Of a stretch of DNA of 64,000 bases, positions 2,757 through 16,153 are shown piece after piece. The stretch covers positions 6,091,635-6,155,634 of the forward strand of contig CP139021.1 of assembly GCA_034044135.1 (NCBI GenBank), given 5' to 3'. A program made the position numbers and the translations under genes. The DNA comes from Flammeovirgaceae bacterium SG7u.111. Lineage in GTDB: Bacteria; Bacteroidota; Bacteroidia; Cytophagales; Flammeovirgaceae. The first letter of the stretch is position 1. Every line of letters starts with the position of its first letter. The notes under the pieces are model-generated. The model ran no database searches. It was not told the DNA's origin and saw only the letters and a list, made by a program, of their open reading frames with translations.

Positions 2757-2793
2757 TTAGAGGCATCATGAAAGTGGTGTCTCTAATTTTTTT
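2757..2793. terminator. Bidirectional terminator between convergent genes
   Basis: Twelve-base stem (2757-2768 with 2775-2786, containing G-T pairs), loop TGAAAG, then seven T on the plus strand. The right arm contains the stop codon of the minus-strand esterase (2783-2785), so coding and terminator sequence overlap. Confidence 0.75.
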
Positions 2794-5700
2794 CTATCAA
2801 AAATTGTAACTGCTGTTCGAAGGTTGCCGCCGAATTTATTTTAAGGTTTCCAAAGGCTTTTTGCTTCGTATATTCCGAACGAATCCCCCTCAATTCTCCA
2901 CTCAAAATAGGCTTGTTCGCCGTGTCTTTTCCTTCGCTTAGGAACAAAGCCCTTGGTGCAATCAGCTCAGCTACATCGGGTACATCAGCAAATTTCAAGA
3001 TATTGGTCTGGAAAATGGCAAACGGCCAATCATGCCAAAAGCTTTCGGAAGTCCCTGCTGCTTTATAGGTCATGAGCGGTCTTGATATCACCGTAGTTTT
3101 TACCTGATCGTCCAAAGCTGCTACATAAATAGCAATCAGTGAGAATAAACTACTATCTGGAGACAGAAGAGCTATTTTATCCAAATCACAAACTTTCCTT
3201 CTAGTTTTGATGTAATCCAACCCTCGCAACACATCAAATACTTTTTGCCCAAAAAGTGGCTTTCCTAAGAAAACCCCACTAGAAAAAGTCAAATATTCTA
3301 GATCTATTTTGTTCCTACTTTTATTCCTTTCTCCATTATTTCCAGCCCGCGGTTCCATTTCAAAAACAGCAAATCCTTGCTGAACCAAAGAATCTTTTTG
3401 CCCTTCACTTCCTCCCAAAAGATAGACTACAGGATTGTTTTTTGTATTCTCCTTATAATAAAGTTCCCCTACCAACTGCACCTCTGGCTCAGTTTCCACA
3501 ATCACCCGCTCCTTTACCACCGAATCCTTGTTGTTCAGCTCAGGTGTGCTCGCCCTAATTTCCAAGCTGGGCTGATAATAGGTGGAAAAACCCAACACAT
3601 CTTTTATTTTTTCTTTCAGCGCATCGCCTTCCAGCTTGGTGTCAGGCAAATTTCTACTTCGATTATAGGCTACGGTCGAAAGCGTTGCAGCAGAATAGGA
3701 AGGCATCCCCACTGTTAAATTCTCAACTGCTTCTACTGTTATTTCAGGCTCGTTGCTAGGCGCATCTACATTGAAATTCTTATTGAAAAAAGCATTTACC
3801 GACTCTCGGTGTTGGGGTGTATAAACATGCCCTGTATCAATGGCTTCTATTTGCAGGTTCTCCCCTGCTCCATACAATTCATAAATTTTTTTCGCATTCT
3901 CGTAAGTTTCCATAGCAGCATCTATGGGAAAAAAATCTTGCTCGCCCACGCCCATAAAAACAGGTCGGGGAGCTATCAGGCTTAAGAGTTGCGATTGCTC
4001 AAAATACATTCTTGGGTGCACCACATAATTATCCATCGTATGAGCTTTGCTCGAACGGATCATGCCTTCATACGAGGCTATGTACATGATAGGAGCTGCA
4101 CATTTTATGCGCTCGTCTATGGCAGAAAGGTAAAAAGTGTGAAATGCTCCGCCCGAATGACCTGTTGCTGCAATTCGGGTAGTATCAACCAAATCGGTGC
4201 GAGAATGGAGGTAATCCACCGCCTTAACTCCATCTCTCACTTGCAAACCGCCTGGACTTGTTCCCGTGAGGTAAAGGTATGCTCCCGTCTGGCCTGTAAA
4301 CTTCCGTTCCCCTCCACCAAGCTCGTCTGGCCCTAGCACTACGTAGCCTTTCTTGGCAAAGCTGATCATGGCTTTTTGGTAATCTTCGGTAAACTTCCCT
4401 TCGTAAGTATGCCCAGCAAAATACACCACCGCCGGATAAGGAGCTTCCCCTTTTTTAGGAATATACAAATTTGCCGTCACCCAAAAACCAGTTTCTGCCT
4501 CGTATAGCAATTTCCTGATCTGATAATCAGGATAATCGAGTGGTGCACCAACAAACCTTGCCCGTACAGGTTTCGCCCCCGGCATATCTGAAGGACGCAA
4601 CCCAAGGGATTCCATTACTTTTCCACGGTAATAGTCCCTTTGACCTTTCCACTCTTTCAGATTTTCTGGTTGGGGAAGTGCCAAAGGAGGTACTTTAGCA
4701 GAAAGGTTTTCCATCGAACGATTGGCTACATCTACGGTATCGATACTTTCTTTTGGTAAAAAAGCTTGCCTTATATTCACCGAGTCGGTGATGCCTGGCC
4801 AGTCGTCGGTGCGAAAAGGGGAGGCAGGTAAACCTTCTTTATTTATCAAATTCGCTTCAGCGGGGTTTATAGCCCATGCATAGCGAACTGCCATCGGCTT
4901 GGAAATAGAATCATTAAAAACCACTAATTCATTTGCTGAAGTGATTTCCGCTTTCGCCCAGCTAAACTCTCGGTTTTCACCTGCTATGGAAAAACTCTTT
5001 AAGTAGCCATATTTATCCGTAGAAGCCAAACCTGAGCCTGTTTCTGTAAATCGGATTTTCATTTTATTTCCTTCTACCCAAGCCGAATCGTAAAGGGGAC
5101 CTGAAGAAACGACGTCCTTCTCGCCATAAGCCTGAGAAAGTGCTGCCAACCCAAGCCTTCGCCCTACTTCCTGTTTGTTTTTAGGATGAATATTAGTTGC
5201 ATCACCAATGTCGATGGTAACCGCCATTCCTGTTTTGGGCAACTCCAAAGTCTTCAATTGCGCTTCTCTCAACTCTGCCCAGCTATTCTCTTCTGGATAC
5301 TCGGCAGCTTTTTTGAAATTTGCCAACTGCACAAACAAAAAAGGAAATTCTTGCCCCCACTTTTCCCGCCAACTGCTGATAAGTGTGGGGAAAAGCGTTT
5401 GGTATTCGTACGATTCATTCCTGTTAGCATTCGCTTCACCTTGGTACCAAATCACTCCTTTAATCGTCATCTTGGAAAAAGGGGCAACCATGGCATTGTA
5501 GATCAGTGAAGGGTATTTGTTTTTATCGAGCGGCTTGCCTTGGCTTTTTTCAACTTCCTCTACCGTACCTGGTAAGCCTTTCGTAAGCTCAATGGGTGTT
5601 TTGTATTTCGGGTTATCAATCAGGCTCTCGGAAGGCATCCAGGCTTGTACATTCGTTCCGCCCCAGCTCACGTTAACCAGCCCAATGGGCACTTGCATTT

Positions 5701-6247
5701 TTTCATACAAAAACCGTCCAAAGTAGTAACCGACTGCAGAAAAATCACCAATAGTTTCTGGCAGGGTTTCTTCCCAAACCGCAGGAGGCATATCAGGGGC
5801 AGGGCGGAAAGATCGGGCAGTAGGAATATTGAGCAACCTAATGGCGGGGTAGCGAGCATTTTGAATTTCCTGCTCGGCATTTTTAGAATCTTTCACCCTC
5901 CAGCGCATGTTCGACTGCCCAGAGCAGAGCCAGACATCCCCTATCATTACATTATCTATGGTAATCAAATTTTTTCCCAACACATTGAGCTGAAAAGGAC
6001 CACCCGCTGGCAACGGATCCATCATTACTTCCCACTCCCCTGCCCTGTTCGTATAGGTCACATAGCTCCTTCCTCGAAGTGTTACCGCTACCCTTTCTCG
6101 TGGGTTTGCCCAGCCCCATACCCGCACTGGCATATCTCGCTGAAGCACCATATTTTCCTGAAAAACAGCAGGAAGGGTAACTTTGGCAAAAAGGGAGAAT
6201 GTTGATAAGCAAATAAAAATAACGAAGAATAGGATAGTTCGAAGCAT
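2783..6247 (-). CDS. Three-domain carbohydrate esterase: sialate O-acetylesterase fused to acetyl-xylan-esterase-like hydrolases
   Basis: A secreted 1154-residue protein, probably removing acetyl groups from acetylated polysaccharides. Residues 1-21 are a signal peptide. Residues about 22-485 are a SGNH-type sialate O-acetylesterase: GQSNM with nucleophile Ser112, the WYQGEAN block, and a late D-x-x-H region (DATNIHP). Residues about 505-815 are an alpha/beta hydrolase like acetyl xylan esterases, with G-H-S-G-G near residue 695 and a later Asp and His (EQDFF, DTGHVY). Residues about 825-1150 resemble a second hydrolase of the same type, but the nucleophile elbow reads SPDSSLF and looks dead. 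It is followed on the same strand by nothing obviously coupled. Substrate is inferred from family only. Confidence 0.85.
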   Translation of the reverse strand: MLRTILFFVIFICLSTFSLFAKVTLPAVFQENMVLQRDMPVRVWGWANPRERVAVTLRGRSYVTYTNRAGEWEVMMDPLPAGGPFQLNVLGKNLITIDNVMIGDVWLCSGQSNMRWRVKDSKNAEQEIQNARYPAIRLLNIPTARSFRPAPDMPPAVWEETLPETIGDFSAVGYYFGRFLYEKMQVPIGLVNVSWGGTNVQAWMPSESLIDNPKYKTPIELTKGLPGTVEEVEKSQGKPLDKNKYPSLIYNAMVAPFSKMTIKGVIWYQGEANANRNESYEYQTLFPTLISSWREKWGQEFPFLFVQLANFKKAAEYPEENSWAELREAQLKTLELPKTGMAVTIDIGDATNIHPKNKQEVGRRLGLAALSQAYGEKDVVSSGPLYDSAWVEGNKMKIRFTETGSGLASTDKYGYLKSFSIAGENREFSWAKAEITSANELVVFNDSISKPMAVRYAWAINPAEANLINKEGLPASPFRTDDWPGITDSVNIRQAFLPKESIDTVDVANRSMENLSAKVPPLALPQPENLKEWKGQRDYYRGKVMESLGLRPSDMPGAKPVRARFVGAPLDYPDYQIRKLLYEAETGFWVTANLYIPKKGEAPYPAVVYFAGHTYEGKFTEDYQKAMISFAKKGYVVLGPDELGGGERKFTGQTGAYLYLTGTSPGGLQVRDGVKAVDYLHSRTDLVDTTRIAATGHSGGAFHTFYLSAIDERIKCAAPIMYIASYEGMIRSSKAHTMDNYVVHPRMYFEQSQLLSLIAPRPVFMGVGEQDFFPIDAAMETYENAKKIYELYGAGENLQIEAIDTGHVYTPQHRESVNAFFNKNFNVDAPSNEPEITVEAVENLTVGMPSYSAATLSTVAYNRSRNLPDTKLEGDALKEKIKDVLGFSTYYQPSLEIRASTPELNNKDSVVKERVIVETEPEVQLVGELYYKENTKNNPVVYLLGGSEGQKDSLVQQGFAVFEMEPRAGNNGERNKSRNKIDLEYLTFSSGVFLGKPLFGQKVFDVLRGLDYIKTRRKVCDLDKIALLSPDSSLFSLIAIYVAALDDQVKTTVISRPLMTYKAAGTSESFWHDWPFAIFQTNILKFADVPDVAELIAPRALFLSEGKDTANKPILSGELRGIRSEYTKQKAFGNLKINSAATFEQQLQFLIEKN

Positions 6248-9113: not shown

Positions 9114-9548
9114 ATGAAATATCTACTATTTTTTATTCCGTTATTTGTTTTTTTTTCTCCTTGCTTTTCTCAAATACAATTCAAAAACAATACATCTGTG
9201 TCCTCAGCAGTTTTTGTGGGAAAAAATCAAAATTCGTATTCTGGTGTTATTGGTAACATCTACACTTTTAAAAAAAGTAAGAATTCCAGCAAAAATATTG
9301 ATGTTCAATTCAATGAAAGTAAATTAATTATTTACCCTAATCCATCTTCTGAATATATACAGGTAGGTATTCAGAATTGGACATTACCCTTTAAGTATTC
9401 TATTATAAACAGTAATGGCAAGAAAGTATTAGACAACTTAATTTATACCCCTCAGATTCAAATAGATATATCCAACTTTCCTTCTGGGATATATTATTTT
9501 ATAGTAAACTCCGAACACAAACTATACGCTAAATTTTTTAAATATTAA
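9114..9548 (+). CDS. Small secreted protein with type IX secretion C-terminal domain
   Basis: A 144-residue exported protein. A signal peptide occupies about residues 1-19 (cut after CFS). Residues about 66-144 are a type A T9SS sorting domain, recognisable by IYPNPSSEYIQV, SNGKKVL and a final beta-rich stretch with FPSGIYYFIV. That leaves only about 45 residues of cargo, rich in Ser, Asn and Lys, with no recognised domain. T9SS cargo is normally moved across the outer membrane and attached to the surface or released. The gene is three bases from the next and both are much more AT-rich than their neighbours, suggesting one transferred or fast-evolving unit. Confidence 0.85.
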   Translation: MKYLLFFIPLFVFFSPCFSQIQFKNNTSVSSAVFVGKNQNSYSGVIGNIYTFKKSKNSSKNIDVQFNESKLIIYPNPSSEYIQVGIQNWTLPFKYSIINSNGKKVLDNLIYTPQIQIDISNFPSGIYYFIVNSEHKLYAKFFKY

Positions 9549-9551
9549 GAC

Positions 9552-11450
9552 ATGAAAATCAATATGCTTTTTTTCAGCTTTTTTCTTATGCTGAGTATTA
9601 CTGTTATGGGCCAATCGCCTAAAATGTTTAATTTTCAGGCCTTAGCAAACCCAAATGGGAATCCCATTATAGAAAAAAATATACAAGTAAAAGCTAGTAT
9701 ATTAGAAGGAGGTCATTCAGGAGTAGTCGCATATCAAGAATTAATTGATTCCGAAACAGATGATCAAGGCTTTTTTAATGTACAAATTGGTTCTGGAGCT
9801 ACTATTTCTGGAGTTTTTGCTCAAGTAAAATGGGAGAACGGAGTATTTTTCATTAAAGTAGAAGTGAGTGAAGACAACGGTAGTACTTTTCAACTATTAG
9901 GTGTGACTCAGTTACTATCTGTTCCCTATGCTTTTTATGCTGATAAATCTGAAAGTCTTTCAAATATTCATTTTTATAGCTCCTCTAGTGAGATGTCCTT
10001 TGATCAAACATTGACAGAAGGAGAAATAGTAAAAACATTAGGTTTTTATGAAGCTGGAGATGGTGGAAATGCAACCTATAAAATAACAACAAATGGAGGG
10101 GCAGGGACAATAGGATTGGAAAATGGTCTCAAAGCATCTTTAGTTGTAGAAAAATCAACTGTTGATGTGAAGCAATTTGGAGCGATGCCAAATAATGGAA
10201 ATGTATATGGATTGCTTTCAGAAGCATTAGAATTCTCTTCAAACAATAACTACACCTTGTTTTTTCCAAATGGAACATACAATATAGACCAAACCCTAAC
10301 TATTGCTGGAACTAACATTAATTCTTCTCTTGCAGATAAACCTGTTACAATTAAAGGTGAGAGCGCATATGGAGTCATGATCAATATGCTTGACAGCCAA
10401 ACAACTTCTATAGACTTTTCCAGAAGCAAACAAGTTAATATTGAGAACATTTCTTCAAATACGCTAATTAAATTAGTGGAGTATGGTGAAGAGTTTATCC
10501 CTCTCTCACAAAAAAGAGAAGTTTTTGCTAAAAATGTGTACACAAATACTTTAACAGAGGAAGATATTAATTGGGGATTATTAATCAATACCCCAAAACC
10601 TGCTCAATATGCAGATAATAGTGGAGGAGCTTACGCAAGATATCCTGTAGAGATTATTAATAATAGTGGATATAATGCTCTAATGATAAATAATTTTGCT
10701 GTTAATGAAGCTGGAGATGTCGAATCACCAGTAGACAATAGTGCTATTGGTATCATAGATAAAGTAAAAAATAACGCTGGTTCTTTTTTAATTGAAGGAG
10801 GGTATCGTCCTTTTCTGGTTTTTAAAAATGAAAATAGTTCATTGAAAAGCAGTGTAATAGAGGGGAGCGTTTTTTCAATATCTCCTGAAGGAAAAATCGG
10901 GATCAATGCCAGTCATTATTATAGTGACGAGCAAGCTCCTGGGACTTACACAATGAAAATAAGAGATAACAGACCATCAATAGCATTATACGATGCTACT
11001 GAAAATAACAAATCAGTACAATTGAGTTATGCAGGTAAATATTTTACTATTTCAGATAGCCAAGGGGATGTGTTAATGAAACTTGGTACACACGCAAATG
11101 TATTTGAACAACTTGGAAGTGGAGGTTTTGCAACAAGCCTTATTATTAGAGACGCCGCATATAATAGAGGTCTAAGGTTTTGGCGTCTTCCATCTTCACC
11201 AAATGGCGAGAAACATAGAATCATCTACACGGATAGCAACAACTACTTAAGAACATACCCTTGGGCAAGTGCACCAGAAGATGAAAGTGGCGAACTACTA
11301 CTGACGAATAAAAATGGATATTCCAACCAAAGACCAAACTTGGATGATAGTGAAAACGTTATTGGATTCATGTTTTTTGATAGAACCTTAAATATTCCAA
11401 TATGGTGGAATGGCAGCAAATGGGTTGATGCCAGTGGCAATGAAAGATAA
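9552..11450 (+). CDS. Secreted protein with Bacteroidota N-terminal module and pectate-lyase-like beta-helix
   Basis: A 632-residue protein with a signal peptide (about 1-20, cut after VMG). Residues about 22-135 match a module common at the N-terminus of Bacteroidota surface proteins (start FNFQALANPNGN, end LLSVPYAFYA). Residues about 205-330 look like a pectate-lyase-3 style parallel beta-helix (KQFGAMPNNG, FFPNGTYNIDQTL). The extreme C-terminus (FFDRTLNIPIWWNGSKWVDASG) is a motif also seen in tail-fibre-like proteins. No T9SS sorting domain is visible, so it may depend on its small partner upstream for surface placement. No catalytic residues can be assigned; adhesin, glycan binding or lyase are all possible. 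Confidence 0.75.
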   Translation: MKINMLFFSFFLMLSITVMGQSPKMFNFQALANPNGNPIIEKNIQVKASILEGGHSGVVAYQELIDSETDDQGFFNVQIGSGATISGVFAQVKWENGVFFIKVEVSEDNGSTFQLLGVTQLLSVPYAFYADKSESLSNIHFYSSSSEMSFDQTLTEGEIVKTLGFYEAGDGGNATYKITTNGGAGTIGLENGLKASLVVEKSTVDVKQFGAMPNNGNVYGLLSEALEFSSNNNYTLFFPNGTYNIDQTLTIAGTNINSSLADKPVTIKGESAYGVMINMLDSQTTSIDFSRSKQVNIENISSNTLIKLVEYGEEFIPLSQKREVFAKNVYTNTLTEEDINWGLLINTPKPAQYADNSGGAYARYPVEIINNSGYNALMINNFAVNEAGDVESPVDNSAIGIIDKVKNNAGSFLIEGGYRPFLVFKNENSSLKSSVIEGSVFSISPEGKIGINASHYYSDEQAPGTYTMKIRDNRPSIALYDATENNKSVQLSYAGKYFTISDSQGDVLMKLGTHANVFEQLGSGGFATSLIIRDAAYNRGLRFWRLPSSPNGEKHRIIYTDSNNYLRTYPWASAPEDESGELLLTNKNGYSNQRPNLDDSENVIGFMFFDRTLNIPIWWNGSKWVDASGNER

Positions 11451-11720
11451 TAAACATTATAAAATATATTAAAGTGAGCCACCTTTACAGGTCAAAGGTG
11501 ATTTATTTAGTTATAGAGAATGAGTGATTAAAAAGGCATACCTCAGCAGAATTTGATGTAGACCGCCCTTTACATAATGAAAAGCCTTTCTCTTAAATTA
11601 ATACTTATGCCATATCATTGTGACAAATAACTACCCAAAGAGTATTAATACGTTCCCACTACTTTATTTTTTTGAAATATCTGCATATGATAAGGTCATT
11701 TTAAAGCTCACCCCAACCTG

Positions 11721-11758
11721 ATTTGAAGCTTAAAACCTTACACAAATGAGCTTCAAAT
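11721..11758. repeat. Inverted repeat (possible operator) upstream of argH promoter
   Basis: ATTTGAAGCT at 11721-11730 is repeated inverted as AGCTTCAAAT at 11749-11758, a perfect 10-base match with an 18-base spacer. It ends five bases before the -33 box of argH, a suitable place for a regulator. It does not match the classical ARG box spacing. A role in arginine control is only a guess. Confidence 0.45.
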
Positions 11759-11763
11759 ATTTC

Positions 11764-11796
11764 TTTGCTTTATTTTCGTCTAGAAAAGTAACTTTG
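11764..11796 (+). promoter_or_regulatory. Bacteroidota-type promoter of argH
   Basis: TTTG at 11764-11767, then 21 bases, then TAACTTTG at 11789-11796, matching the -33 TTTG and -7 TAnnTTTG consensus of the Bacteroidota primary sigma factor. Transcription should begin near 11802, giving a leader of about 35 bases before the argH ATG. Confidence 0.75.
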
Positions 11797-11835
11797 CGAG
11801 CAAGTGAAGAAATTAAAAACAAATCACCTTGATAT

Positions 11836-13170
11836 ATGAAACTTTGGCAGAAAGGATTTTCCATAGACAAAAAAATTGAAGACTTTACCGTAGGTAGGGA
11901 CCGAGAGCTGGATCTCAACTTGGCGAGGTTCGATGTGTTGGGTTCCATTGCCCACATTACCATGCTCGAAAGCATCGACTTGTTGAAAAAAAGCGAGCTA
12001 GATATTCTGACCAAAGAACTTAGGAAAATCTACGAAGAAGTAGCCGAAGGGAAATTTGAGATTGAAGATGGAATAGAAGATGTGCACTCGCAGGTAGAAA
12101 AATTGCTAACCGAAAGGCTGGGCGATGTCGGAAAAAAAATCCACAGCGGTCGCTCACGCAACGACCAAGTTTTGCTAGACCTTAAGCTCTACATGCGAAG
12201 CGAGATCATGCAAATCAGCCAGATGACGAACGAGCTTTTTGAAACGTTGCAAGCTCAAAGCGAACGCTATAAAAATGTGCTTATTCCAGGCTATACGCAC
12301 TTACAAGTTGCCATGCCGTCATCATTTGGACTGTGGTTTGGGGCTTACGCCGAAAGTTTGGTGGACGACATACTGTTGCTCCAGTCTGCATGGAAAGTTG
12401 CCAACCAAAATCCCCTTGGATCGGCTGCTGGCTATGGATCTTCTTTCCCTCTCAACCGAAGCATGACCACCAAGCTGCTAGGCTTCGACGACCTGAACTA
12501 TAATGTGGTCTATGCCCAAATGGGACGAGGAAAATCGGAAAAAATATTGGCTTTTGCCCTCAATTCAATTGCCGCTACGTTGGGGAAACTGGCAATGGAC
12601 ATCACGCTTTATATGAACCAAAACTTTGGTTTCCTTACCTTCCCCGACCAGCTCACCACAGGCTCTAGCATCATGCCGCACAAGAAAAACCCTGACGTAT
12701 TTGAGCTAGTAAGAGCAAAGTGCAACAAGGTTCAAGCTTTGGCTGGGGAAATAATTGCCATCACATCCAACTTGCCATCGGGCTACCACCGAGATTTCCA
12801 ATTGGTGAAAGAATCGTTTATGGATGGAATAGCCGACCTGAAGTCTTGCTTGGAAATAAGCGAATATGCCCTGCAACAGGTAAAAGTAACTGAAGGAATT
12901 ATTGAAGACCCTCGCTACCGTTTCTTGTTCAGCGTAGAAGCCGTGAACGAGGAAGTGTTGAAAGGCGTACCGTTCCGTGAGGCATACCAAAAAATAGGCA
13001 AGCAAATAGCTGACGGTTCGTACCAAGACAAAACTGATGTAAACCACACGCACGAAGGAAGCATCGGCAACCTCTGCACGGCAGAAATTGGGGCAAAAAT
13101 GGAAAAAGCCTTGGCAAGTTTCAACTTCTCAAAAGTGATGGCAGCAGAGTCTGACCTATTATTAGGATAA
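11836..13170 (+). CDS. argH: Argininosuccinate lyase
   Basis: Cytoplasmic enzyme of arginine synthesis that splits argininosuccinate into arginine and fumarate. The protein has 444 residues, the length usual for Bacteroidota. The fumarase/aspartase-superfamily signature GSSIMPHKKNPD lies at residues 276-287, with the catalytic serine loop. HSGRSRNDQ near residue 105 and the GYTHLQ block (about 153) are the other conserved regions. The ATG at 11836 is preceded by a well-formed promoter. Other arg genes are not in the window. The acyltransferase-aminopeptidase gene follows after 35 bases, so co-transcription is likely. Confidence 0.97.
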   Translation: MKLWQKGFSIDKKIEDFTVGRDRELDLNLARFDVLGSIAHITMLESIDLLKKSELDILTKELRKIYEEVAEGKFEIEDGIEDVHSQVEKLLTERLGDVGKKIHSGRSRNDQVLLDLKLYMRSEIMQISQMTNELFETLQAQSERYKNVLIPGYTHLQVAMPSSFGLWFGAYAESLVDDILLLQSAWKVANQNPLGSAAGYGSSFPLNRSMTTKLLGFDDLNYNVVYAQMGRGKSEKILAFALNSIAATLGKLAMDITLYMNQNFGFLTFPDQLTTGSSIMPHKKNPDVFELVRAKCNKVQALAGEIIAITSNLPSGYHRDFQLVKESFMDGIADLKSCLEISEYALQQVKVTEGIIEDPRYRFLFSVEAVNEEVLKGVPFREAYQKIGKQIADGSYQDKTDVNHTHEGSIGNLCTAEIGAKMEKALASFNFSKVMAAESDLLLG

Positions 13171-13205
13171 GCAAGTTTCAGGTTTGACATGAAAACAAAT
13201 TCCAA

Positions 13206-14825
13206 ATGCTCATTCGAATAATTTGCCGGTTCTTTTTGTGGCTTTTTGGCTGGAAGGTAAAAGGAAAAGTGCCCGACGGCACCAACAAATACCTTGTGGT
13301 AGTGATGCCCCATACTAGTACTTGGGATTTCATTGTGGGCATCATGATCAGGCCCTTGCTAAACATGCCCGAGTGCCACTACCTCGCCAAAAAATCACTT
13401 TTTGATTCTAAACTTGGCTTCTTGTTTTACTGGCTGGGTGGCACTCCCGTCGACCGTAGCCGAAACATGGGTTTGGTGGACCAAGTGGTGGAGAAGTACG
13501 AAGAGAGGGAACGCTTTGGCATTGCCGTCACCCCAGAGGGGACAAGGGCACTTGTCCCTACCTTGAAAACGGGATTTTACCACATTGCCTTAAAGGCAAA
13601 TGTCCCGCTGGTGTTGGGGTATTTTGACTTCAAAACCAGAACTGGAGGCGTAAGCGAAGAACTTATTTATCCAACAGGCGACTATGAAGCCGACTTGAAA
13701 AAGATAAAAGCTTTTTATCAAACCATTGGCGCAAAGCATCCTGAAAAATTCCTTTGGCACCAAAACTGGAAAAGTAAAATCCCATGGTTTGCCAATCCTT
13801 TCAAATTCACGCTCAAACTGCTCCTTGTTTTCATATTAAGCTATTTACTCATCAACTTCAAGCTGGTTCATTATGGGCTGAAGCAAGGCTATGGCCAATT
13901 GGAAATTTTGGTGAAAGCCAAGCCTATCGAAAACTTTTTGGCAGACCCAAATTACCCCGATTCGCTGAAGCAACGCATCAACTTGGTACAGGAAATAAGG
14001 CAATATGCCTTCGACTCGGTCGGGCTTGACCAGAGCAATAGTTACACTAAAATGTATGACCAAAAGGGCAAGCCAATACTTTGGGTAGTAACCGCTTGTA
14101 AGCCTTTTGCATTGAAAAATAAAGTATGGGATTTCCCCGTGCTAGGTCGGGTTTCTTACAAAGGTTTTTTCGATTCTTTGGCATTGAAAAAAGAAGCCAA
14201 GGCGCTGAAAGAAGAAGGTTGGGACACTCGGGTGAGGCAAGTGAATGCTTGGTCAACCTTGGGGATTTTGAACGACCCCATCCTTTCTAACATGCTCTAT
14301 CGCAGCGAGGGCTACCTTGCCGAGGTGATCATTCACGAGCTTACGCACGGCACGCTTTTCATCAAAGACAACTTGCAGTACAACGAGAACTTGGCAAATT
14401 TTGTGGGAGAAGAAGGAGCAAAACGCTTTCTGTTACATAAATACGGGATGGATTCGCCTGAATATAAAAATTATCAGCAATCGCAGCCCGACTATGAGCA
14501 ATTTGCCAATTATACGCTGAACTTTACCAAAACACTCGATTCGCTCTATAACACCTTTGATGAGCAGATGACTTATAAGGAAAAATCAACACTTAAAAAC
14601 AAATATATTGAACGTTATATACAAGGAATAGATTCTTTAGAATTTACTAACCCGAGGTATTATGGTTATTTTAAAAATTTCCATCCAAACAATGCTTTCT
14701 TTATGGCATTTGTAAGGTATAGAGCCAGCAAAAACCAGTTCAGAGAGCAATTTGAAAACGAGTTTGAGAGTAATTTTGTAGACTACATTACGTATTTAAA
14801 AGATACTTACCCTTCTATTTTCTAA
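13206..14825 (+). CDS. Fusion protein: PlsC-like acyltransferase plus COG4324-type zinc aminopeptidase
   Basis: One 539-residue frame joins two unrelated domains. Residues about 1-190 are a lysophospholipid-acyltransferase (PlsC) fold: HTSTWD with His36 and Asp41, GGTPVDRS, and TPEGTRA. A hydrophobic helix spans about 198-216. Residues about 220-539 match the predicted aminopeptidase family COG4324, with WSTLGILNDP, zinc motif HELTH (His377, Glu378, His381) and NENLANFV with Glu394 as likely third ligand. I see no stop or frameshift between them. If the acyltransferase is cytoplasmic, the peptidase would lie across the membrane. Standalone versions of both are known; whether the pair modifies lipoproteins or lipopeptides is speculation. 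Confidence 0.85.
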   Translation: MLIRIICRFFLWLFGWKVKGKVPDGTNKYLVVVMPHTSTWDFIVGIMIRPLLNMPECHYLAKKSLFDSKLGFLFYWLGGTPVDRSRNMGLVDQVVEKYEERERFGIAVTPEGTRALVPTLKTGFYHIALKANVPLVLGYFDFKTRTGGVSEELIYPTGDYEADLKKIKAFYQTIGAKHPEKFLWHQNWKSKIPWFANPFKFTLKLLLVFILSYLLINFKLVHYGLKQGYGQLEILVKAKPIENFLADPNYPDSLKQRINLVQEIRQYAFDSVGLDQSNSYTKMYDQKGKPILWVVTACKPFALKNKVWDFPVLGRVSYKGFFDSLALKKEAKALKEEGWDTRVRQVNAWSTLGILNDPILSNMLYRSEGYLAEVIIHELTHGTLFIKDNLQYNENLANFVGEEGAKRFLLHKYGMDSPEYKNYQQSQPDYEQFANYTLNFTKTLDSLYNTFDEQMTYKEKSTLKNKYIERYIQGIDSLEFTNPRYYGYFKNFHPNNAFFMAFVRYRASKNQFREQFENEFESNFVDYITYLKDTYPSIF

Positions 14826-14846
14826 CAACCACCACTTACTTAAACC

Positions 14847-15653
14847 ATGAAAATAAATCAGGCTGAAACCATTGAAGAAGTTATTAGCGAACTAGATAAG
14901 ATCATTCTTTGGTCCTTGGAAAATAAAAGTTCTTTGGGCTATTTTCCAAGTCTTTACAAGCAGGTGACCGCCCGAGTAAAAGAAGGAGTTGAACAAGAAG
15001 AGTTTGCCGATAATCACCGAATGGAACGGTTAGATGTAGCTTTTGCCAACCGCTATTTGGAAGCCTTTGCTGCATATCTAGAAAATGAAACGCTTACCAA
15101 ATCTTGGCAATTGACTTTTGATGCCCAACGACAATGGTGGCCCTTGGTCCTTCAGCATTTATTGGTAGGAATGAACGCACACATCCACCTTGACCTTGGA
15201 ATTGCTGCAGCCCAAACTTCTCCAGGAGATAGCGTTCACCACCTTAAAGAAGACTTCAATGCAATTAATGCTTTACTCTGCTTAATGATAGACCAAGTAC
15301 AAGAAGCTCTTGTATTTGCATGGAAACCGCTAAAATTGATTGATGCGGTAGCGGGGCAACTAGACGAAGGAATTGCTGGTCATGGTATCCGTTTTTCCCG
15401 TGATTTTGCTTGGGGAAATGCACTTCGGTTTTCAGGAATGCCTTATGGTGCTTCGGTGTGGGGTGAGGAGATTCTAAAGCTGGACGGAAAAGTTTCTAAA
15501 TGGGGAAACAAAATGATAAAACCAGGAGGTCTGTTTGGCTTAACAGCGAAATGCATCCGAATTATGGAAAACAAAGATGTTGTGAAATGCATAGAATCAC
15601 TGAATAACAATAAGGTAGTATTGAAAAAGCAAAGCCTATCCAAATCTGAATAG
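14847..15653 (+). CDS. DUF5995 family protein
   Basis: A 268-residue soluble protein of the DUF5995 family, function unknown. It is mostly helical. Conserved-looking blocks are FADNHRMERLDVAFANRYL (about 52-70), HLLVGMNAHIHLDLGIA (about 108-124) and HHLKEDFNAINALL (about 135-148). The several His and Asp residues in these blocks could bind metal, but that is inference. It follows the acyltransferase-aminopeptidase gene by 21 bases and probably shares its transcript. No signal peptide or membrane segment is seen. Confidence 0.8.
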   Translation: MKINQAETIEEVISELDKIILWSLENKSSLGYFPSLYKQVTARVKEGVEQEEFADNHRMERLDVAFANRYLEAFAAYLENETLTKSWQLTFDAQRQWWPLVLQHLLVGMNAHIHLDLGIAAAQTSPGDSVHHLKEDFNAINALLCLMIDQVQEALVFAWKPLKLIDAVAGQLDEGIAGHGIRFSRDFAWGNALRFSGMPYGASVWGEEILKLDGKVSKWGNKMIKPGGLFGLTAKCIRIMENKDVVKCIESLNNNKVVLKKQSLSKSE

Positions 15654-15745
15654 GCTTCTGATAACTTATGGTGGTTCCATAGGTTAGCCGTTCTGTTAAA
15701 ATTAAGCCTATAATAACAGCAGCTAATTTTTTAACCGTTCACCTT

Positions 15746-16153
15746 TTACCTCCCCACTGTCGTTTCCACCACTTCTCCTTTTATTACTAATACGGCAACA
15801 GGTGTAGTCGAATTACTATACACCCTGATACTTTTGTGGAAAACTCCTTTGTTGGCTGCATTATAGGTCGCTTTTATACTCGCAGTTTCCCCTTTTTGCA
15901 GCGGCTCTTTGGGCCAAGAAGCAATGGTACATCCGCAAGTTGGCTTCACTTCGGTGATAATGAGCGGTGCTTTTCCCTCGTTGGTAAACGTGAACACAGC
16001 TTCGGCAGGAACGCCTTTTTTGATTTTTCCCAAATTCACTTCTTGGGCTTTCCAACTGAAAGTAGCTGCTTCTGTACCAATAACTTGTGCCTGCTGAGCA
16101 TAGCTTGCTGCGGCAAAAAATAACATGAGCAGGGGAAGAATTACTTTTTTCAT
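15746..16153 (-). CDS. DUF1573 (MSP-like) secreted protein
   Basis: A 135-residue exported protein with one DUF1573 immunoglobulin-like domain, typical of Bacteroidota. I chose the ATG at 16153 because MKKVILPLLMLFFAAAS is a normal signal peptide; an ATG at 16201 would add 16 polar residues. Diagnostic motifs are VNLGKIKKGVPAEAVFTFTN and PTCGCTIASWPKEPL, with the paired cysteines of CGC. The function of these proteins is not established; they are usually thought to be periplasmic or surface scaffold proteins. A second member with the same layout lies at 60947-61330. It is divergent from the histidine kinase gene. Confidence 0.9.
   Translation of the reverse strand: MKKVILPLLMLFFAAASYAQQAQVIGTEAATFSWKAQEVNLGKIKKGVPAEAVFTFTNEGKAPLIITEVKPTCGCTIASWPKEPLQKGETASIKATYNAANKGVFHKSIRVYSNSTTPVAVLVIKGEVVETTVGR

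Follow-up and report, generated by a model that had tools for sequence, protein, structure and literature searches.

A short PlsC-type acyltransferase fused to a PF10023 putative metallopeptidase, with one probable membrane helix between them, in Flammeovirgaceae

Introduction

The protein studied here is encoded in a stretch of 64,000 nucleotides from Flammeovirgaceae bacterium SG7u.111 (hereafter the window) and combines an acyltransferase (AT) with a peptidase (PEP) domain. For the first of these, the closest described proteins are PlsC and the other 1-acylglycerol-3-phosphate O-acyltransferases (PF01553; solved structure 5kym), which have HX4D and PEGTR blocks in common with it; motif I of the AT agrees with the description given in passages of PMC9541089. 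However, this AT is short, divergent and fused to a peptidase, and the fused protein stays far from the NCBIfam cut-offs of the AGP acyltransferase (PlsC) equivalogs, with 41.2 of 102.95 bits for TIGR00530 and 27 of 501 for PRK15018. Mycobacterial PatA (7ojt, 5f31) provides the best fold matches (E about 4e-4) of a predicted model of the whole protein, with 13-17% identity, a TM-score of about 0.4 by target length and rmsd of 5.6-8.6 (further matches were taken as noise). Unlike the fused protein, PatA has no peptidase.

A protein that combines two activities on membrane lipids is already known from Bacteroidetes. According to passages of PMC11631085, the aminolipid pathways reviewed there rely on an N-acyltransferase together with an O-acyltransferase. 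In some Bacteroidetes a single protein, the ornithine-lipid synthase OlsF, performs both acylations; of its two halves, the C-terminal one resembles OlsB, and the N-terminal one is described as distinct from OlsA. OlsF resembles the fused protein in this double activity but it has no peptidase, and it has no match in the genome of the window.

The 'putative aminopeptidase' family PF10023 corresponds to COG4324, as given by the initial annotation of this DNA, and M1 aminopeptidases are recognized by a G-x-M-E-N motif and by HExxH-x18-E. In the passages of PMC3650047 that deal with it, PF10023 (formerly DUF2265) is included in a survey of HExxH zincins as one of the zincin-like families, leukotriene A4 hydrolase being the nearest structure given; a fold related to M1 is therefore possible. 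Among the papers listed when open-licence full texts were searched by family names, there was no functional study of PF10023. Free-standing proteins of this family carry a lipobox or an N-terminal hydrophobic segment, whereas the copy in the window sits behind an acyltransferase. Both domains belong to known families; their combination and their predicted topology are new to us. We found no description of the AT-PEP architecture among the papers listed from the open-licence full-text literature, which is not proof of its absence. The papers listed on glycine lipids and on PlsC paralogues, and the passages of PMC9541089 and PMC11631085, likewise showed nothing on such a fusion. PF10023 peptidases being widespread in some groups, their natural fusion to a lipid acyltransferase offers a concrete lead to the context in which they work.

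Results and Discussion

Architecture and topology of the fused protein

The fused gene (13206..14825, + strand) starts with ATG and encodes 539 aa. Both domains lie in this single reading frame and exceed the Pfam gathering cut-offs: PF01553 matches residues 27-136 (E 3.1e-10; 40.4 bits for a cut-off of 23) and PF10023 residues 223-520 (E 5.8e-73; 246.5 bits for a cut-off of 25), the latter alignment spanning profile positions 2-297 of 322. This bears out the fusion proposed by the initial annotation. The AT domain (13206..13760, +; residues 1-185) contains H36-x4-D41 within HTSTWD (36-41), G78, R84 and PEGTR (110-114). It is followed by a linker with a probable transmembrane helix (13761..13868, +; about residues 186-221; hydrophobic core 203-221) and then by the PF10023 metallopeptidase domain (13872..14822, +; residues 223-539), which carries H377, E378 and H381 in HELTH (377-381), N393, the second-site Glu394 and A397 in NENLA (393-397), N496 and Y505.

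The helix joining the two halves had been described as single, and only one segment is strongly hydrophobic: the 19 residues from residue 203 have a mean hydropathy of 2.11, and weaker peaks occur within the AT domain (1.52 at residue 30 and 1.21 at residue 1). On the N-terminal side of the helix, the 15 neighboring residues include three K/R and no D/E, and the C-terminal side has one of each kind. In alignments, segment 203-221 coincides with the hydrophobic segment at the N-terminus of free-standing PEPs, which in Bacteroidota as a rule begin with a basic N-terminus followed by such a segment. Export signals were compared between the Bacteroidota, the class of G770 (genome of L015, Gammaproteobacteria) and the Gemmatimonadota of the set around G771 (genome of L016, Gemmatimonadaceae). 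As a sequence signal, a Cys near the mature start is found in 30/30 PEPs from the class of G770, 16/22 from Gemmatimonadota and 23/82 from Bacteroidota. The strict lipobox pattern matches 24/30, 8/20 and 5/84 of them, respectively, the 84 Bacteroidota rows including two Gemmatimonadota and four fused proteins. The PEPs from the class of G770 look like exported lipoproteins. Since free-standing PEPs carry export or anchor signals, the fused PEP is probably periplasmic and the AT cytoplasmic, with one helix between them. The location of the two halves on opposite sides of a membrane, already suggested by the initial annotation, is consistent with these signals (Cys and lipobox, N-terminal hydrophobic segment and charge).

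The window protein has no ATG between codons 88 and 283, and in codons 150-300 the sole GTG or TTG ahead of the helix is TTG 164; its peptidase half is therefore probably produced solely within the fusion. The same may not apply to all relatives. The partial copy of genome G523 has an in-frame ATG 37 codons ahead of its helix, which would permit production of a separate peptidase in this strain and counts against the reading of the fused protein as two tethered enzymes that we prefer below.

Identity of the two halves

The AT family profile matches the solved PlsC structure 5kym (E 1e-8). Since the model of the fused protein is also PatA-like, the AT half is an acyltransferase by descent. A lyso-lipid is its likely acceptor; action on a lysophospholipid is predicted from the family, and the low scores with the AGP acyltransferase models weigh against the explanation that we favor below. 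No paper on the AT sub-family was found under its CDD name. The genome of the window has seven PF01553 matches, one of which (L197) is more PlsC-like than the fused AT (TIGR00530 96.4 bits, narrowly below 102.95); the fused AT thus need not be the sole LPA acyltransferase of this strain.

In the peptidase half, HExxH is followed by a downstream NExxA, and the spacing from the last H to the E is 12 in 134/134 PEPs. This combination points to a zinc metallopeptidase. In the term 'zinc aminopeptidase' used by the initial annotation, 'aminopeptidase' is only a label, since GxMEN is found in 0/134 PEPs and the spacing of 12 replaces the 18 of M1 enzymes in all of them. Compared with solved structures, the fused protein (P0001) gave no sequence match below E 0.2. 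With the PEP profile, the matches were ATP synthase b chains (best E 0.005), explained in our view by coiled-coil similarity, the SprT-like Spartan at E 0.3 and two weaker ones; no PF10023 structure was identified by sequence in this comparison. Predicted models are poor in the peptidase half, with a mean pLDDT of 61.4 for the whole protein, which was the model used for the fold search, and of 53.2 for the PEP alone (alignments of 8 and 4 rows). The poor models and the failure to find a PF10023 structure by sequence count against the explanation favored below as well.

Distribution of the fusion and of its separate halves

The fused protein was searched in 390 genomes of the order, 353 of which gave some match. 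The top full-length matches (G567 and G552) have 60% identity over residues 2-539 without any internal stop, and both domains exceed the curated cut-offs in each of the corresponding ORFs (L018 and L019). The G523 match begins at residue 81, where its contig ends. When the 18 genomes of the family were searched with the AT half, residues 2-75 turned up at the start of a second G523 contig, and we regard the two pieces as a single split gene (L020 + L076). PF10023 passes in the truncated L020 (252.3 bits), and its partial AT, cut by the contig end, scores 21.1 bits, just below the cut-off of 23. Overall, the fusion is present in 4/18 genomes and 3/8 genera of the family. Outside the family, none of the matches listed in the order spans both domains; the same is true of the matches listed for 150 genomes around G771, 138 of which responded to the fused query.

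The halves are also found apart. PF10023 is above its cut-off in 8/395 genomes of the phylum, all of the same order, in 90/274 genomes of the class of G770 (G770 itself having no match) and in 137/150 sampled genomes of the phylum of G771. No AT was found in any of the 50 PF10023 loci inspected in the draws from these last two groups and, apart from the fused genes, no inspected locus contains both AT and PEP. Within the family, two of the 18 genomes (G410 and G473) have a PEP without any AT match, and in G543 the PEP is accompanied only by an AT of the type named AT-2 below. Conversely, G072, G166 and G387 match the fused query and have no PF10023 match, so that only the AT half can account for what was matched. 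The long open frames around the AT in L016 and L017 contain the AT domain only. In viral contigs, there was no PEP relative among 75 candidate stretches, and three AT-only loci (39-40% identity) were found; the 15 plasmid records found correspond to one PEP (Bernardetia) and 14 AT-only matches, none of which spans 80% of the query. As AT and PEP occur apart, these domains are not obligate partners.

Origin of the fusion

The AT tree was built from 34 ATs, after 12 duplicate loci of the 46 matches had been dropped. It shows a split (100/99) between two types that we name AT-2 (16 rows) and AT-1 (18 rows). On the AT-1 side, the four fused ATs cluster together (99/96), without a clear closest sister (84/85 for the remaining rows). 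A separate AT-2 gene is present in the genome of the window (L002) and in G523 (L058). The AT-half search in the 18 genomes of the family gave 30 matches in all; they include no second AT for G552 and G567 (the latter 84% complete) and no free-standing AT-1-type gene for any of the four genomes with the fusion. The fused AT stands in for the free-standing AT-1, one of the two paralogue types.

A quick tree of 83 PEPs, built without duplicates and without loci L077-L091 (and hence without the PEP of G410), also groups the four fused PEPs in a clade (SH-aLRT 99), which lies beside ten free-standing PEPs of the family and is joined to them at 90. The fusion looks like a single event, by which one gene took over from a free AT-1 and a free PEP. 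No intermediate was found among the loci and regions examined. Several homologue matches (G714, G681, G767 and G535 among them) extend upstream, across stop codons, and enter query residues 142-190, which hinted at an adjacent AT gene. An origin from an operon with adjacent AT and PEP genes was considered and dropped, as the loci of these four genomes (L101, L115, L117 and L026) and the other inspected loci have no AT beside their free-standing PEP; most of these loci have flanks of 1.3-1.5 kb and some end at contig ends.

Conservation and selection

After dereplication (157 PEP segments reduced to 107; 43 AT segments of at least 150 residues reduced to 22, three shorter ATs being dropped) and removal of the window's own copy, 106 PEPs and 21 ATs were available for comparison. 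In the PEPs, H377, E378, H381, N393, E394, A397, N496 and Y505 are identical in 106/106 relatives. In the ATs, H36, T37, D41, K62, G78, R84, P110, E111, G112 and R114 are identical in 21/21, with slight variation at S38 (19/21) and W40 (20/21). Both active sites had been described as intact, and these alignments agree: neither domain lacks its conserved residues.

Nei-Gojobori counts on one closely related pair, L018 and L019, gave dN/dS of 0.047 (AT), 0.045 (PEP) and 0.065 (linker). Purifying selection thus acts on the two halves in this pair and has maintained them ever since they were fused, at least within that genus. Between L018 and L020, the ratios are 0.102 (AT) and 0.355 (linker); synonymous sites are saturated in the PEP of these two copies and in all parts of the comparison of the window with L018.

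Possible functions of the fused protein

We consider it probable that the fused protein is a pair of independent enzymes tethered across the inner membrane, the outcome of a clade-specific fusion. This fusion placed a short PlsC-type AT of the AT-1 type ahead of the N-terminal anchor of a PF10023 metallopeptidase, giving a protein predicted to cross the inner membrane once. The AT half, facing the cytoplasm, would acylate a lyso-(phospho)lipid of the inner leaflet, and the peptidase half, facing the periplasm, would hydrolyze peptides or envelope proteins. Each half most likely retains the activity of its free-standing relatives, and the link would serve to produce them together and to hold them at the membrane, not to carry out a single joint reaction.

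The two halves could instead act as a coupled enzyme, in which the peptidase would process or sense a lipoprotein, a peptide or another envelope substrate in the periplasm and in this way control or feed lipid acylation at the inner face. Retention of the fusion in three genera, together with selection on both halves, can signal functional coupling and to this extent speaks against simple tethering; constraint is equal on both halves in the pair measured, and the fused AT replaces a free-standing paralogue type. However, AT and PEP each occur without the other, no inspected locus beyond the fused genes has both, and no adjacent gene is common to the window and the other loci compared. On balance, coupling seems rather unlikely. 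Its more specific form, a single-pass bifunctional enzyme that links periplasmic proteolysis to acylation at the cytoplasmic face, for instance as a lipopeptide or lipoprotein recycler or as an envelope sensor adjusting acyl composition, is more doubtful still. If the halves are coupled, the protein would represent a new kind of trans-membrane bifunctional enzyme; if they are not, it would be an instructive case of simple tethering.

The initial annotation had suggested an aminolipid or a lipopeptide as substrate, and the protein could make or remodel such lipids if its AT esterified a lyso-aminolipid and its peptidase trimmed the amino-acid part. The pairing of N- and O-acyltransferases in the reviewed pathways, and its realization in one protein by OlsF (passages of PMC11631085), would fit this idea. 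The genome of the window was searched for OlsB/GlsB-type and OlsF enzymes. The model PF13444, which we take to be the family holding OlsB and GlsB, has no match in this genome and is positive in the control Bacteroides ihuae, but it is not specific, since E. coli is also positive. The OlsF model NF052615 has no match either; it has matches in four control genomes but exceeds its cut-off in 0/14 of the controls, which makes this test weaker. As no N-acyltransferase of a known type was found and AT and PEP also occur apart, the proposed substrate is unsupported, although N-acyltransferases of other families may be present. Moreover, the predicted topology puts the two active sites on opposite membrane faces, and we regard this activity as very unlikely.

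It is equally hard to credit that the peptidase alone matters and that the AT now serves to anchor the protein at the membrane surface, with little or no catalytic activity. The hydrophobic N-terminus could aid membrane binding, but the catalytic residues of the AT are intact, its dN/dS is as low as that of the PEP in the pair measured, and no second AT-1-type copy was found in the genomes with the fusion. Finally, an assembly error, a frameshift or chance, which would have confined the fusion to this genome, deserves practically no credence, because the same architecture recurs in two further genomes as full-length homologues about 60% identical without internal stop (G552 and G567) and as a split copy in a third (G523).

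Gene neighborhood

The fused gene lies between an argH-like (argininosuccinate-lyase) gene (11836..13170, +; 35 bp upstream; TIGR00838 323 bits, cut-off 279.5) and a DUF5995 gene (14847..15653, +; 21 bp downstream; PF19458 E 3.1e-64), both of which are possibly co-transcribed with it. A scan of 11500-15900 gave no terminator-like site for the + strand, and promoter-like matches were about as numerous as expected by chance (nine found, 7.2 expected). When the window was compared with 18 Bacteroidota regions of 4-18 kb (three fused and 15 free-standing), close relatives were found to have neighbors in common with one another. Conserved neighbors were nevertheless abandoned as a functional clue, as the argH-like and DUF5995 genes have no relative in these 18 regions. 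Outside Bacteroidota, a cca-like tRNA nucleotidyltransferase gene adjoins the PEP in 20/30 loci from the class of G770 (L144-L173), and SPFH-like and leuS-like genes are each found in 8/20 loci of the set from the phylum of G771, all these genes having been named by eye.

Other features were observed in the window and elsewhere in this genome. Upstream of the argH-like gene, a 632-aa ORF (9552-11450, +) without any Pfam match up to E 1 adjoins a short ORF (9114-9548) whose C-terminus, judged by eye, resembles a secretion-sorting tail. A protein of 1154 aa (2783-6247, - strand) carries a SASA acetylesterase domain at its N-terminus and an AXE1/glucuronyl-esterase-like domain at its C-terminus and is apparently a two-esterase protein. 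The segment 25278-27941 (+) is an ordinary translation cluster, with tRNA-Tyr, tRNA-Gly, tRNA-Thr, the EF-Tu gene, tRNA-Trp and then the NusG gene. Elsewhere in the genome, a 339-aa gene (L201, 2059-3075) without Pfam or NCBIfam match at E 0.001 directly follows the AT-2 paralogue. The same genome also carries another acyltransferase fusion (L198, 667-3357; C1 near 428408), a long open frame cut by the end of the locus that combines part of an MMPL-type transporter with acyltransferase and methyltransferase domains.
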